A stretch of DNA of 64,000 bases. It comes from Haloarcula salinisoli. Lineage in GTDB: Archaea > Halobacteriota > Halobacteria > Halobacteriales > Haloarculaceae. The position numbers and the translations under genes are program-made. The stretch's first letter is position 1. Every line of letters begins with the position of its first letter. The stretch covers positions 434,001 to 498,000 of the forward strand of contig NZ_RKLQ01000002.1 of NCBI RefSeq assembly GCF_019599405.1. Reading direction: 5' to 3'. The notes beneath the pieces are model-generated. The model had not been told where the DNA came from, ran no database searches, and saw only the letters and a list, made by a program, of their open reading frames with translations. Positions 33,968-38,742 of the stretch are shown here, in pieces.

Positions 33968-34060
33968 GCGTCGCCGCAGCGCGGCACCGCAGCCGCGCTG
34001 TGGGCGGGTCTGGACGGCACGACAGCCGTACAGGACGCCACTTCAGCGCGGCACCGCAGC

Positions 34061-34207
34061 CGCCCGGACCCGCTGTCCCGTGCGGCTGCCCTGCCGCCCG
34101 GACCCGCTGTCCCGTGCGGCTGCCCTGCCGCCCGGACCCGCTGTCCCGTGCGGCTGCCCTGCCGCCCGGACCCGCTGTCCCGTGCGGCTGCCCTGCCGCC
34201 CGGACCC
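34061..34207. repeat. 34-nt perfect tandem repeat
   Basis: Four identical copies of a 34-base unit (cgcccggacccgctgtcccg + tgcggctgccctgc) occupy 34061-34196, and a partial fifth copy (11 bases) follows to 34207. An 18-base phrase agcgcggcaccgcagccg before it occurs twice (near 33978 and 34044). The unit is not a multiple of three and lies between two genes, so it is not coding. Copy number probably varies between strains. Confidence 0.9.
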
Positions 34208-34252
34208 GGCGGGCTTCGACGGCCTTTTTCGCCCGCCGGCCGGAACTCGGAT

Positions 34253-34441
34253 ATGCTTGACAAACTCGGTGTCGCCGGCGTCGCCGGTATCGTCGTCCTC
34301 CTTGCGGGTATCGGTCTCGTGGCGTGGCAGAACCTGATTCTGGCCGCCGGGCTCGGCCTTGTCGTCAGCGGCCTCGGCCTGGTCGTCTACGGGCTCGTGA
34401 CCAGCCTGCTCTCCTCGTTCGGGCTGGGCGGGATGCCCTAG
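34253..34441 (+). CDS. Small haloarchaeal membrane protein (DUF7470-like)
   Basis: The 62-residue protein begins MLDKLGVAGVAGIVVLLAGI and has two closely spaced hydrophobic helices joined by AWQNL, ending SSFGLGGMP. It matches a small haloarchaeal family that I recall as DUF7470 (tentative). The start at 34253 is taken from the family N-terminus; the upstream frame is repeat-derived. It overlaps the convergent kinase gene by four bases. No function is known. Confidence 0.65.
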   Translation: MLDKLGVAGVAGIVVLLAGIGLVAWQNLILAAGLGLVVSGLGLVVYGLVTSLLSSFGLGGMP

Positions 34442-35430
34442 ACGGCGAACTCGAAGCGAGCGCCGCCACTCGCCGCCTCGGTCACCGACACGTCCCAGCC
34501 GTGGGCTGTTGCGATGGTGCGCACGATGTACAGGCCAAAGCCCGTCCCGCCCGCGGCGTCGCTCACGCCGGGGTCGAAGACCTGGTCCCGAACCGCGGCG
34601 TCGATACCGGGGCCGTCGTCTTCGACGGCGAACCCGTCGGCCGTCGCTTCCAGTCGCACCGTCACCGGCGTCTCGTCGTCCGTCTGTCCGTGTTCGATCG
34701 CGTTTCGAAAGAGGTTCTCGAACAGCCGCAGGAGCCGGTCGGCGTCCGCGTCGAGCCGGAACTCTTCGGGCCCCTCGAAGACGGCGTCGTCGGTGTCGAC
34801 GTACTCCCACGCTTCGCGGGCCACCCACGCGATGTCGGTCGGTTCGATGTCAGTCGCCAGCGTCCCCTCCCGGGTCGCCAGGCGGATGTCGGTGATGATG
34901 CGGTCGATACGTTCGTGGGCCGCCTCGATGGCGTCGAGGGACCCCACATCGCCGTCGCGGGCCAGCGCGAGGTGGCCGCTCGCGACCGAGAGCGGGTTCC
35001 GAATGTCGTGGGCCAGCAGGTCCGCGAACTCCGCGAGGCGTTCGTTGTGCTGGCTGAGCTGGCCCGCCTGCTCGTAGCGCTCGGTCACGTCCCGGCCGAT
35101 GCCGGCGAAGCCGATCACCTCGCCGTCCTCGTCGGTGAGTTGCCGCCCCGTCAGCTCGAAACGGACGGGCCCCTCCGTCGTCTGGCTCACCGCCTCGACG
35201 GTCGTCTCGCCCGTCTCGCGTATCTCGTCGAGGGCCGCCTCGACCGCCGGTCGGTCGGCCGGTCCGAAGAACTCCGTCGCCGCCATCCCGTCGAGCTCCG
35301 CGTCGCTCAGGCCGTACAGCTCGTTCAACCGCTGGTTCCAGTAGACAAGTCTAGCTGTCTCGTCGTAGATGTAGATAACGTCGTCCAAGGTGTCTAACGC
35401 CCGCTCGACAACGTCCCCCTCGACACTCAT
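34438..35430 (-). CDS. PAS-domain histidine kinase
   Basis: The 330-residue soluble kinase has one PAS sensor domain (residues 5-115, with YDETARLVYWNQRLNELYG). A dimerisation box follows, ADLLAHDIRNPLSVASGHL, with the phospho-acceptor His near residue 141. The HATPase domain has N-box LFENLFRNAIEHG, G1 EDDGPGID and G2 GGTGFGLYIVR. No transmembrane helix is present, so it senses an intracellular cue. No cognate response regulator lies next to it, which is common in haloarchaea. The start (MSVEGDVVERALD) is chosen from the PAS layout; an upstream frame is not protein-like. Confidence 0.88.
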   Translation of the reverse strand: MSVEGDVVERALDTLDDVIYIYDETARLVYWNQRLNELYGLSDAELDGMAATEFFGPADRPAVEAALDEIRETGETTVEAVSQTTEGPVRFELTGRQLTDEDGEVIGFAGIGRDVTERYEQAGQLSQHNERLAEFADLLAHDIRNPLSVASGHLALARDGDVGSLDAIEAAHERIDRIITDIRLATREGTLATDIEPTDIAWVAREAWEYVDTDDAVFEGPEEFRLDADADRLLRLFENLFRNAIEHGQTDDETPVTVRLEATADGFAVEDDGPGIDAAVRDQVFDPGVSDAAGGTGFGLYIVRTIATAHGWDVSVTEAASGGARFEFAV

Positions 35431-35593
35431 GGTATCTGTACGTGACCGCCGCTCATAACCGTTGGCAGGATATCGAGGAACAACTCGTAAACACGGGCAT
35501 AAAGTTTTGCTTACGGAACAAATCAGAACAAAAGTTCGATAATATGGACTTTCGTGTCTGACTGTATATTTCCTCACACGATGGCCTGCGTGC

Positions 35594-35850: not shown

Positions 35851-38250
35851 CTACTCGAACAACTCTTCGTACACCTTCTGCTGTGCGGCCCGCAGATGCT
35901 GGTGGTACGTGGGCCGGGAGATGTCCATCGCCTGGGCGAGTTCGTCGCCGTCGACCTCGCGGGGCCAGTCGAAGAAGCCGCCGAGATACGCGGTTCGAAG
36001 CGCCGTCTCCTGGCGGTCGGTAAAGCGCTCGGAGAGCGAGGCCTGGAACTCCTGTTGGGTCTGGACCGGCCGCTCGTGCTCGTGGTAGCCCACCAGGTCG
36101 GTGCCGTCGTAGTTGTCCTCGACCAGCGAGAACACCTCGCGGGCGTCGCCCTCGTATGGGAGTTCGATGGTGTAGCGGGCGACGCCGTTCTCGCCGGTTA
36201 TCTCCTTGGGTACCGCGCCGTGGTCGACCAGCGTCGCCAGCAGCGACTCCCCCACGGTGACCTCGAACAGCGCCGACCCCTCGTGTTCGGCAACCTGCGT
36301 GACGCTGCGGACGGCGTCGTCGTCCTGGAGTGCCGTCAGAACGGCCTCGGTGTCGCCGCCCTCGGCGTCGAGATACACCCGCAGCGACCCGTCGTCTTGC
36401 GTGACAGTCCCGGCGGAAGTCAGCGTTGTGTCGGTCGACGCCGAGAGCCGGCTCATCAGCAGGTCGCGGTCGGTGACGGTGAACTCCAGCTCGATGACCT
36501 TGTCCGCCGACAGGATCTTGCCGCTCTCGATGGCGTTGATGGCGTTGGCGACGGCCCGGCCCAGCGCCTCCAGGACGACCTGCTCGCGGTCGTCGAACGC
36601 GTCGGGGCGGTCCGAACAGACGAACAACACGCCGTAGGTCGAGTCGGTATAGGCCAGCGGGACGACCATCATCGACGCGACGCCGGCCTCGTGGACCCAC
36701 TGGACCCACTCGACGTCGCTGGCGCTGAGGTCGTCGATAATCTCGCTGCGTCCCTCGGCCAGCGCCGTCGCGCCCGGCGTCCCGTCGGCGACCGGTATCG
36801 ACTCGCCGTCGGCCACGACGCCGGCCTCGCCGGCCCACTCGCTGACGTCGAGGTTGTCCCCGTGGACGGCGGGACGGCCCACCCACGCGAGCGTGTACGG
36901 CTCCGTCGCCGCCAGTTCCGCACAGACGCCGGCCTCGACGGCCTCCCGTGTCGTCGCCTCGACCAGCACCTCGACGGTGTTCTCGATGAGGCCGTTGATG
37001 CGGTCGAGGATGGTCGCGATGCGCTCTCTGGTCTCTCTGACCTCCTGTTCGCGTTTCGCGCGGTTGCAGGCCGCGGCGGCGTTGGTCGCAAGCAAGGCGA
37101 CGACCTGTCGGTCGATGTCGTCGAAGGCGTCTTCCTCGGTCGAGAGCACGCTCAGGGTTCCGTGGACGCCGACAGGCATGTACAGTCCCGAGCCGACGGT
37201 CGTCCCGCTGTCGTCGAGCGCGTGACTGGTGCTGTAGCTCGCCGTCTCGCCGGAGGCAAAGACCTGGCCGGCCTCCCCCTCGTTGAGGCCGTACACCGGC
37301 CGTTCGCCCAGAGCCTCGACGACCGCGTCGGTCGCCGCCGCCGGCCGGAGCACCCGCTCGTCGGCGTCGTACAGCCGGACGACGGCCATGTCGAGGCCGA
37401 GCACCCGCTCGGTCGCTGCGGCGACGATGCTGGCCACGTCCTCGCGGCTCGGCGCCTGCATCAGGCTCCGGGAGGTCTCCTGCAGGGCCGAGAGCAGCTC
37501 TTCGCGGCGCTTGCGCTCGGAGATGTCACGGATGACGCCGGCCGTTCCCCGGAATTCGCCATCTGGGCCGTACAGCACCGTCATGTGATCCTCACAGGCG
37601 ATAGTCCGTCCGTCGGCACGCCGGAGCTCCAGCTCGAAGGTCGTCCCGACGTCGTCCCGGCCCGACGACGAGAGCAGCTCCCGCAGTTTCGACTCGGCGA
37701 GTTCGACCGTCTCGCGGTCCTTGATGATGATGGTGTGTTCGCCCAGCAGTTCCTCGATGTCGTAGCCCGTCAGCTCCGCCAGCGCCTCGTTGGCGAAGAT
37801 GAACTCTCCTTCGTCGTCGAGCGCGTACACGCCATCGTCGAGCGCCTCGATGACTTCGCCGTAGCGGTCGAACGCCCCCATCGCCGTCGGGCCGTCGTCG
37901 CTCGCCACCGACGCGATACGGTGGGCCAGTTCGACGTACTGCGTGTCGCCGCCCGGCCGGAGGTACGCCAGCGTGTCGTCGGCCAGCACCTCGCTGACCT
38001 GCTCTGGCCCCCCGTCGGCGAACACCACTATCGGTAGCGTCGGGCGCTCCGCCCGGAGCTGCGTGACCAGCTCGGGCAGCTCGAACGCCAGGCTGACGAC
38101 ACAGTCGACCCCGTCGACCGAGTCGGCCGCTGCCTGACCGGTCGCCGTTCGAACGGTCAGTCCCGCCTCGGCTGTGTCGAGGCTCGCCGCCGTCTCCGCA
38201 ACCCGTTCCTCGTCGTCCCCACACACGAGGACGGTGTGCCCGCAGTCCAT
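35851..38250 (-). CDS. Bat-type regulator with PAS, GAF and HTH-10 domains
   Basis: The 799-residue protein has, in order, a degenerate receiver-like domain (1-115), a PAS domain (about 125-245, GVYALDDEGEFIFANEALAE), two GAF-like domains (about 255-405 and 420-580), a bacterioopsin-activator N-terminal-like region and a C-terminal HTH-10. In the HTH-10, the segment LSERFTDRQETALRTAYLGG is followed by DELAQAMDISRPTYHQHLR. This architecture is that of haloarchaeal Bat-family transcription activators, which combine redox/light-related sensing with DNA binding. The target genes are unknown. A small zinc-finger gene lies 39 bases upstream on the same strand, echoing the Brz-Bat pairing. The start at ATG 38250 has good spacing. 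Confidence 0.85.
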   Translation of the reverse strand: MDCGHTVLVCGDDEERVAETAASLDTAEAGLTVRTATGQAAADSVDGVDCVVSLAFELPELVTQLRAERPTLPIVVFADGGPEQVSEVLADDTLAYLRPGGDTQYVELAHRIASVASDDGPTAMGAFDRYGEVIEALDDGVYALDDEGEFIFANEALAELTGYDIEELLGEHTIIIKDRETVELAESKLRELLSSSGRDDVGTTFELELRRADGRTIACEDHMTVLYGPDGEFRGTAGVIRDISERKRREELLSALQETSRSLMQAPSREDVASIVAAATERVLGLDMAVVRLYDADERVLRPAAATDAVVEALGERPVYGLNEGEAGQVFASGETASYSTSHALDDSGTTVGSGLYMPVGVHGTLSVLSTEEDAFDDIDRQVVALLATNAAAACNRAKREQEVRETRERIATILDRINGLIENTVEVLVEATTREAVEAGVCAELAATEPYTLAWVGRPAVHGDNLDVSEWAGEAGVVADGESIPVADGTPGATALAEGRSEIIDDLSASDVEWVQWVHEAGVASMMVVPLAYTDSTYGVLFVCSDRPDAFDDREQVVLEALGRAVANAINAIESGKILSADKVIELEFTVTDRDLLMSRLSASTDTTLTSAGTVTQDDGSLRVYLDAEGGDTEAVLTALQDDDAVRSVTQVAEHEGSALFEVTVGESLLATLVDHGAVPKEITGENGVARYTIELPYEGDAREVFSLVEDNYDGTDLVGYHEHERPVQTQQEFQASLSERFTDRQETALRTAYLGGFFDWPREVDGDELAQAMDISRPTYHQHLRAAQQKVYEELFE

Positions 38251-38289
38251 GCCTAACTGGTTAGCCAGTCTGGCACATGAATGTGCGGG

Positions 38290-38439
38290 TCAGGCACCGC
38301 GCTGGGACAGCCCCTCGCGCATCCGCGGATGACAGCCCGCACAGAGGTGCTCCTCACGCCGGTACGTCATCGTCTCCGTCGGCCGCCGGTGCTTCCATAC
38401 GTGGCCCACCTCGTCGTTGCAGTTGTCACAATCTACCAT
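38290..38439 (-). CDS. Small CxxC zinc-finger protein upstream of the Bat-like gene
   Basis: The 49-residue ORF starts MVDCDNCNDEVGHVWKHRRP and ends ELHLCAGC-type: EEHLCAGCHPRMREGLSQRG. Two CxxC pairs (CDNC, CAGC) plus histidines would bind one zinc ion. It is 39 bases upstream of the regulator gene in the same direction and a TATA-like element (ctttatga, about 38471-38478) precedes it. Brz, the zinc-finger partner of Bat in Halobacterium, is similarly small and adjacent; whether this is homologous or merely analogous cannot be settled here. It is below common length cut-offs. Confidence 0.72.
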   Translation of the reverse strand: MVDCDNCNDEVGHVWKHRRPTETMTYRREEHLCAGCHPRMREGLSQRGA

Positions 38440-38604
38440 GGGTGTATCTGTCGTGTGTGGTATTATCTATCATAAAGCTCCCGTCTAGTTCTGTTTAAGG
38501 AATACTAACTGGACGGACGCTCGCTTCGACACTCCCTGGGTCTGCCGTGCTTCAATTCCCTCAGTTCCGCATACACGGCTCTCACGTCCGTTCGAGCCGA
38601 GAGA

Positions 38605-38671
38605 TGCGCCGTCCGGGAGTGAGCAACCGCGGAGCGGTTGCGAGCTACGGACGGCAAACGACCGCAGGGAG
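38605..38671 (-). repeat. Nested hairpin with a copy of the tRNA-Gly 3' end
   Basis: TGCGCCGTCCGGGA (38605-38618) repeats the last 14 bases of the tRNA gene that starts at 38672. Between them lies a nested hairpin: outer stem CCGTCCG/CGGACGG, then GA, an 8-bp inner stem GCAACCGC/GCGGTTGC with GGA triloop, then GA. Next comes another loop, GACCGCAGGGA, that can pair with the tRNA acceptor arm. This follows the architecture of the other hairpin repeats and may be a trace of insertion at the tRNA. Confidence 0.6.
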
Positions 38672-38742
38672 TGCGCCGTCCGGGAATTGAACCCGGGCTC
38701 TAGCCTTGGGAAGGCTATGTCCTACCACTGGACCAACGGCGC
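38672..38742 (-). tRNA. tRNA-Gly (anticodon CCC)
   Basis: The 71-base gene folds as a full cloverleaf on the minus strand. The acceptor stem is GCGCCGT/ACGGCGC with discriminator A. The anticodon stem TAGCC/GGCTA carries the 7-base loop TTCCCAA, so the anticodon CCC reads GGG (glycine). The T arm is CCGGG-TTCAATT-CCCGG. No intron or encoded CCA is present. Confidence 0.93.

Follow-up and report, generated by a model that had tools for sequence, protein, structure and literature searches.

HTH_10/Bat proteins are numerous in haloarchaea, and known sites or targets are, to our knowledge, few. The closest described system is that of Halobacterium salinarum, in which Bat, Brz and Brb are required for induction of the bacterio-opsin gene bop and have been proposed to cooperate at the protein level (PMC3184054), brz lies directly upstream of bop (PMC2253796), and mutagenesis revealed an upstream activating sequence (UAS) 5' to bop, with UAS sites also near brp and crtB1 (PMC1447603). 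Small zinc fingers near bat homologues were likewise published in 2008 and 2011, namely boa4-OE2447F, boa2-OE3131F (one gene apart) and HQ1083B-bat of Haloquadratum (PMC2253796, PMC3184054), together with small basic proteins. Such neighbours give a precedent to the idea, raised in an earlier note on the present DNA, of a small zinc-finger gene paired with a bat-type one, and the case described below is a separate, lineage-specific instance. The finger-beside-bat arrangement is already in print; the new part is the regulator's candidate DNA site.

We analysed a window of 64,000 nucleotides from Haloarcula salinisoli (C2:434001-498000), in which a 49-aa CxxC/CxxCH open reading frame lies 39 nt (stop to start) before a 799-aa regulator on the same strand. 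This layout, which the earlier note had likened to Brz-Bat and suspected to be a general two-gene unit, is confirmed, and the small gene proves to be a real one that is conserved and keeps its place beside a Bat-type regulator, but neither the likeness to Brz nor the generality held up. The features of the locus are as follows:
35851-38250, minus strand: gene of the Bat-like regulator, 799 aa, with PAS (residues 130-243), two GAF, BAT (583-737) and HTH_10 (743-794) domains by Pfam
38253-38264, minus strand: palindrome CTAACCAGTTAG, at -14 to -3 from the regulator ATG, a proposed autoregulatory operator of bop-UAS type, noted for its recurrence across loci
38273-38286, minus strand: core-promoter-like inverted repeat GCACATTCATGTGC at the TATA position of the regulator gene (-36 to -23), from cross-genome comparison
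38290-38439, minus strand: gene of the 49-aa zinc-knuckle protein, C-x2-C-x25-C-x2-C-H-P (MVDCDNCNDEVGHVWKHRRPTETMTYRREEHLCAGCHPRMREGLSQRGA), from the list of open reading frames, homologues and dN/dS
38471-38476, minus strand: TATA-like TTTATG of the zinc-finger gene, kept or nearly kept (TTTATG, TTTATA or TTATAT) in 8 of 10 genomes and different in G017 and G012
38493-38499, minus strand: CTTAAAC element, 16 nt upstream of that TATA-like box, in 7 of 10 genomes, degenerate in G008 and absent from G017 and G012
38671-38742, minus strand: tRNA-Gly(CCC) found by tRNA scan, upstream, so that the finger lies between tRNA and regulator

The regulator is of the Bat type, with BAT (PF15915, 1.6e-46) and HTH_10 (PF04967, 1.4e-19) domains following a PAS match and two GAF stretches; NCBIfam adds above its cut-off only a general PAS-domain match, and the N-terminal stretch, free of Pfam matches, looks receiver-like. 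Orthologues occur in 16 of 32 genus genomes (at least 66% identity, with the next matches at no more than 37% over comparable length) and in 58 of 146 genomes of the family, spread over 11 of its 22 genera. Judged by these sequences, the regulator predates its pairing with the finger. A candidate orthology with the bop activator itself was rejected: identity to Bat of the Halobacterium-type genome G106 is 31% over the C-terminal 415 residues, and 15 of 60 surveyed non-orthologous HTH_10 loci score above G106 Bat against the window's regulator. Downstream of the regulator and on the same strand lies a gene for a PAS-HisKA-HATPase histidine kinase (window 34438-35436), and a GC-rich perfect tandem repeat of 34 bp in 4.4 copies spans 34059-34208.

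The small open reading frame begins with ATG, carries the knuckles CDNC and CAGCHP, and matches no Pfam family above cut-off. Among 60 whole genomes of relatives that were searched, 10 gave strong homologues (E < 1e-14), these ten belonging to one genus; a single weaker homologue came from another family (E 6e-10), and G024 gave only a damaged match. All ten genus homologues retain the ATG start, both knuckles and a W-(K/R)-(H/Y)-RR-(P/A) core, so that the conservation on which the earlier note had made its proposal depend is found in 10 of 32 genus genomes. Furthermore, dN/dS lies below 1 in all 45 pairwise comparisons (range 0.08-0.62). Spurious frames are indeed many in GC-rich haloarchaeal genomes, with 64 open reading frames of at least 40 aa in 9 kb here, but the start, four cysteines and core shared by ten genomes, together with purifying selection in every pair, already refute a chance open frame, to which we assign a practically nil probability; by these comparisons the small frame is a real gene. 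Its AlphaFold2 model (mean pLDDT 67.9) shows a hairpin of strands 14-20 and 27-33 and a helix, residues 38-46, at the second knuckle. The candidate considered for this model was a zinc-binding treble clef, which would set two Cys pairs around a hairpin with the second pair where a helix begins. Against PDB folds the model gave no significant match, the top hits being PARP1 N-terminal domains at E = 2.1, and the finger likewise gave no significant solved relative.

Like the C(P)XCG micro-proteins of Haloferax volcanii, the finger is shorter than 70 aa and has two Cys knuckles (PMC11241148); its knuckles CDNCN and CAGCH differ from theirs in lacking the P or G of the motif, and its zinc binding is predicted. 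The window's finger falls outside the CPxCG rule of PMC2253796, whereas its relatives in G017 and G012, with CDHCG, fall within it, so the family straddles the definition.

Linkage to the regulator is strict within the genus. An intact finger is present in 10 of the 16 genomes with a regulator orthologue and in none of the 16 without one, an association for which treating the genomes as independent, an assumption that does not hold, gives 1.2e-4; all ten lie directly upstream of the orthologue on the same strand, at gaps of 39-160 nt. In a tree of 21 regulator sequences, the deepest split within the genus group has finger-bearing loci on either side, and a single gain with about four losses (G013 with G020, G014, G024, and G029) therefore fits best. 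The regulator stands without any finger in G013, G014 and G020, decayed remnants of the frame persist in G024 and G029, and the contig of G010 begins within the regulator.

The gaps bear on whether the small frame could be a leader or upstream reading frame whose translation or transcript controls bat in cis. Seven of ten are short (39-50 nt), as such a leader would have it, but those of G008, G012 and G017 measure 87-160 nt, selection acts on the finger's amino-acid sequence, and a core promoter and operator belonging to bat itself are present even where the frame is absent; we therefore regard a leader as very improbable. At the TATA position of the regulator, finger-bearing genomes show a ATTCNTGTG-like element (variants ATTCTTGTG and CTTCATATG), and three finger-less ones show TTGTTATACC or CTTTGTACC. 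The finger's promoter, with its CTTAAAC and TTTATG elements, differs from that of the regulator, and a shared transcript is thus not required.

In 14 loci of other genera (L275-L288) no small two-knuckle frame was found upstream of the regulator within the stretch read, the regulator frame of L282 and L287 being open to the end of the available upstream sequence. Nor is the pair a general two-gene unit, as had been suggested: small two-knuckle frames lie directly upstream of none of 60 other HTH_10 genes, taken as 60 of the first 62 among 224 matches in 11 genomes with two left out, the gene of the window itself and a row that contains an internal stop. The same rule recovered 10 of 10 known pairs and called none at 5 loci without an intact finger. 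One surveyed HTH_10 gene has, 398 nt away, the end of a reading frame that we take to be RNA polymerase subunit P. By this survey, the pairing is confined to a single group of relatives and is not general.

With a profile of the finger, by comparison, relatives turn up in 49 of the 392 genomes searched across the order, and 40 of those 49 belong to other genera. Neighbourhoods were read for 21 of these 40, up to about 4 kb or more on each side, some shortened by contig ends, and none (G056 included) contains a BAT or HTH_10 domain. Many of the distant homologues are fused to a second CPxC..C domain, and they sit at unrelated places, in one case behind a gene presumably encoding the small subunit of DNA polymerase D. 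Together with the separate conserved promoters of the two genes, these observations lend some weight to a functionally unlinked finger, an autonomous member of a widespread haloarchaeal family that came to lie between tRNA-Gly and bat by chance. The tRNA points the same way: a 14-nt copy of its end (TGCGCCGTCCGGGA; 38605-38618 versus 38672-38685) stands 67 nt from it, of the kind that integration at tRNA genes can leave, which may explain how the finger arrived. A tRNA-Gly precedes the locus in the same orientation at 12 of 15 scanned genus loci and at 2 of 3 from a second genus. However, every intact genus copy has stayed beside the regulator despite drift of the gap from 39 to 160 nt, and none of the 16 genus genomes lacking the orthologue has a copy, so that we hold the absence of any functional link to be doubtful, though well short of negligible.

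Compared with Brz-Bat(-Brb) of H. salinarum, the locus likewise encodes a small zinc-knuckle protein near a GAF/PAS/HTH_10 activator, and its site class matches opsin promoters (PMC2253796, PMC3184054). The proposed likeness to Brz fails on two counts, in that brz lies directly upstream of bop and not of bat, and in that the finger has no detectable similarity to Brz. In G106, bat and brp run on one strand and brz, followed by the bop opsin gene, on the other, so that brz is found across brp from bat; the G106 Brz has the GTG start, Cys-11 and Met-21 given in PMC2253796. Homology of the finger to Brz was rejected, with no BLASTP alignment to G106 Brz and a profile comparison at 12.6% probability over 12 columns. 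The finger furthermore lacks CPxCG and an opsin neighbour, and the 39-nt gap contains no separate basic-protein frame. As the earlier note had observed, the window contains no opsin gene; the nearest of the genome's three opsin matches, C2:799896, is on the same contig about 300 kb outside the window, and the finger does not lie directly upstream of bop. Compared by arrangement, the locus resembles bp4-OE2447F-boa4 of H. salinarum and HQ1083B-bp-bat of Haloquadratum walsbyi, where a finger likewise precedes a bat homologue in the same direction; those units add a small basic-protein reading frame (PMC3184054).

The candidate site of the regulator emerges from its own start. Of the 15 genus loci in which the regulator start is visible, 13 have exact CTAACNNGTTAG just before the ATG, whether or not a finger is present; in G026 and G001, finger and regulator are retained and half of the start-site palindrome is lost. 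A second genus has it exactly in 2 of 6 loci and with one mismatch in the other 4, loci of more distant genera, where the regulator's N-termini differ, show it in 0 of 8, and the finger's own promoter contains no bop-type palindrome.

Elsewhere in the genomes the same letters recur at a fixed position. The 16 orthologue-bearing genus genomes contain 47 exact copies of CTAACNNGTTAG, against 11 for a reversed-pattern control, and 13 of the 47 are the regulator's own promoter; the other 16 genus genomes have 13 copies, against 8 for the control. Away from the bat promoter, 30 of 34 sites in orthologue-bearing genomes were fetched (the other four are sites of a gene that we call gene A, seen separately), and in 19 of these 30 the ATG of an acidic reading frame follows 37-42 nt downstream, a spacing for which random positions give a background of 1.7% per strand at 38-41 nt; the remaining 11 show no such frame. 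Among genomes without the orthologue, 10 of 13 sites were fetched and none has an acidic frame at that spacing.

Recurring targets are gene A, a HalOD1-domain protein, and helical-looking proteins of 88-102 aa without a Pfam match above cut-off. Gene A encodes an acidic protein of 71-75 aa (MSxSQSxDRxxELGDIFVxVTG...) that belongs to no Pfam family; the example at L184:2551-2769 has about 71 residues. With at most one mismatch, the site stands at -53 of gene A in 14 of 15 orthologue-bearing and 0 of 14 orthologue-less genus genomes, setting aside G007 (58% complete), where the site is present and the orthologue undetected. Outside the genus, strong matches to gene A itself (E <= 2e-11) come from 14 of the 16 orthologue-bearing genomes and from none of the 13 others; CCAACTCAGTTAGG and CCAAACTAGTTTGG are examples of the variant sites that its promoters carry there, at -50 to -56. 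It is important to note that, within the genus, genomes with and without the orthologue may form one or two clades, so that these counts are not independent events. An initial statement that the palindrome occurs only with this regulator was softened, given variants at gene A in other genera and in genus members lacking the orthologue (CCAAACTGATTCGG).

The palindrome also leads back to the opsins. A matrix built from gene A sites alone was applied to 400 nt upstream of opsin genes. In 21 of 29 promoters its top-scoring site falls at -53 to -57 relative to an in-frame ATG, the set comprising 29 of 30 loci (L319, at a contig start, was dropped) and including several near-copies from one genus. 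The control regions elsewhere, three of the same size per locus, are partly coding and make a weak comparison, and the clustering of positions is the stronger result. Sites recovered in this way include that of a Halobacterium-type bop (CCATACTGATTGGG) and that of the window genome's opsin at C2:799896 (CCCAACTGATTGGG). The match of the gene A matrix to opsin promoters is the basis on which the palindrome appears to belong to the bop-UAS class, an assignment made through these matches and not through published UAS letters. As in the bop UAS, the target genes have a CCNAACNNGTTNGG-like palindrome about 40 nt before the start codon and upstream of the TATA position, of the same class and at the same distance as in haloarchaeal opsin promoters; in contrast to the bop UAS, it stands here before genes of small proteins other than opsins and also at the start codon of the regulator itself, where the position departs from the bop type.

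Whether the window's regulator is the protein that reads this site must be weighed against a paralogue. Another Bat-type protein, such as an opsin activator, might read the palindrome, drive gene A and control the bat-like gene of the window, whose product would then read some other site. The genome has 38 HTH_10 matches, and genomes that lack this orthologue still have the site class in their opsin and gene A promoters, so that other Bat paralogues can use it. Outside the genus, the 16 genomes with the orthologue contain 13 copies of CCWAACNNGTTWGG (control 2) and the 13 genomes without it contain three (control 1); the latter three (L369, L370 and L372, one genus) read CCAAACCAGTTTGG and lie 43-45 nt before the ATG of a 287-aa gene that we take to be halorhodopsin-like. 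Against a paralogue, the occurrence of the strict CTAACNNGTTAG and of the targets at fixed spacing follows that of this orthologue, as does, outside the genus, the occurrence of gene A itself; we therefore consider such a reader unlikely, if by no means far-fetched. The opsin match supports binding of the palindrome by the window's regulator, short of proof, and a paralogue could bind as well.

Together, these data lead us to propose, with confidence evenly divided, that a Bat-like regulator works through a bop-type UAS palindrome and that a small zinc-finger companion gene modulates it. The regulator would recognise a palindrome of the bacterio-opsin UAS class, CCWAAC-NN-GTTWGG, which at -53 to -42 of its target genes, just upstream of the TATA position, would lead to activation of gene A (71-75 aa), the 88-102-aa proteins and the HalOD1-domain protein. 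The same site at the regulator's own start (-14 to -3) would limit its expression, since overlap with the expected transcription start implies negative autoregulation. The finger, with its own promoter, came to lie once between tRNA-Gly and the regulator in the ancestor of this Haloarcula-type clade and was later lost about four times, and we infer that it is most likely a dispensable modulator at the protein level, as proposed for Brz and Brb with Bat; its dispensability in evolution speaks against a partner role. More tentatively, and with somewhat less than even confidence, we suggest that Bat-type regulators are not opsin specialists, and that one such protein of the Haloarcula-type clade controls, through a bop-type UAS, a non-opsin regulon of small acidic proteins, regulates itself, and has recruited a zinc-finger partner of its own independently of Brz.

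In the open-licence literature we recognised no work on the finger, gene A or the regulator's sites. What deserves to be followed up is the non-opsin regulon predicted for a Bat-type protein: a position-fixed palindrome links the regulator's start codon, recurrent small-protein genes and opsin promoters and so opens the DNA-binding specificity of HTH_10/Bat proteins to direct tests, and the lineage history offers natural comparisons, with and without the finger, for the contribution of a small zinc-finger partner. Copies of CTAACNNGTTAG also occur near position 2501 of L166, L168, L182 and L183, each beside a DUF6276 gene. These intergenic DUF6276/prf1 sites have no acidic frame at the fixed spacing and no Rfam family; three of them also adjoin the end of prf1, two have a TATA-like stretch, and they possibly mark an unrecognised RNA.
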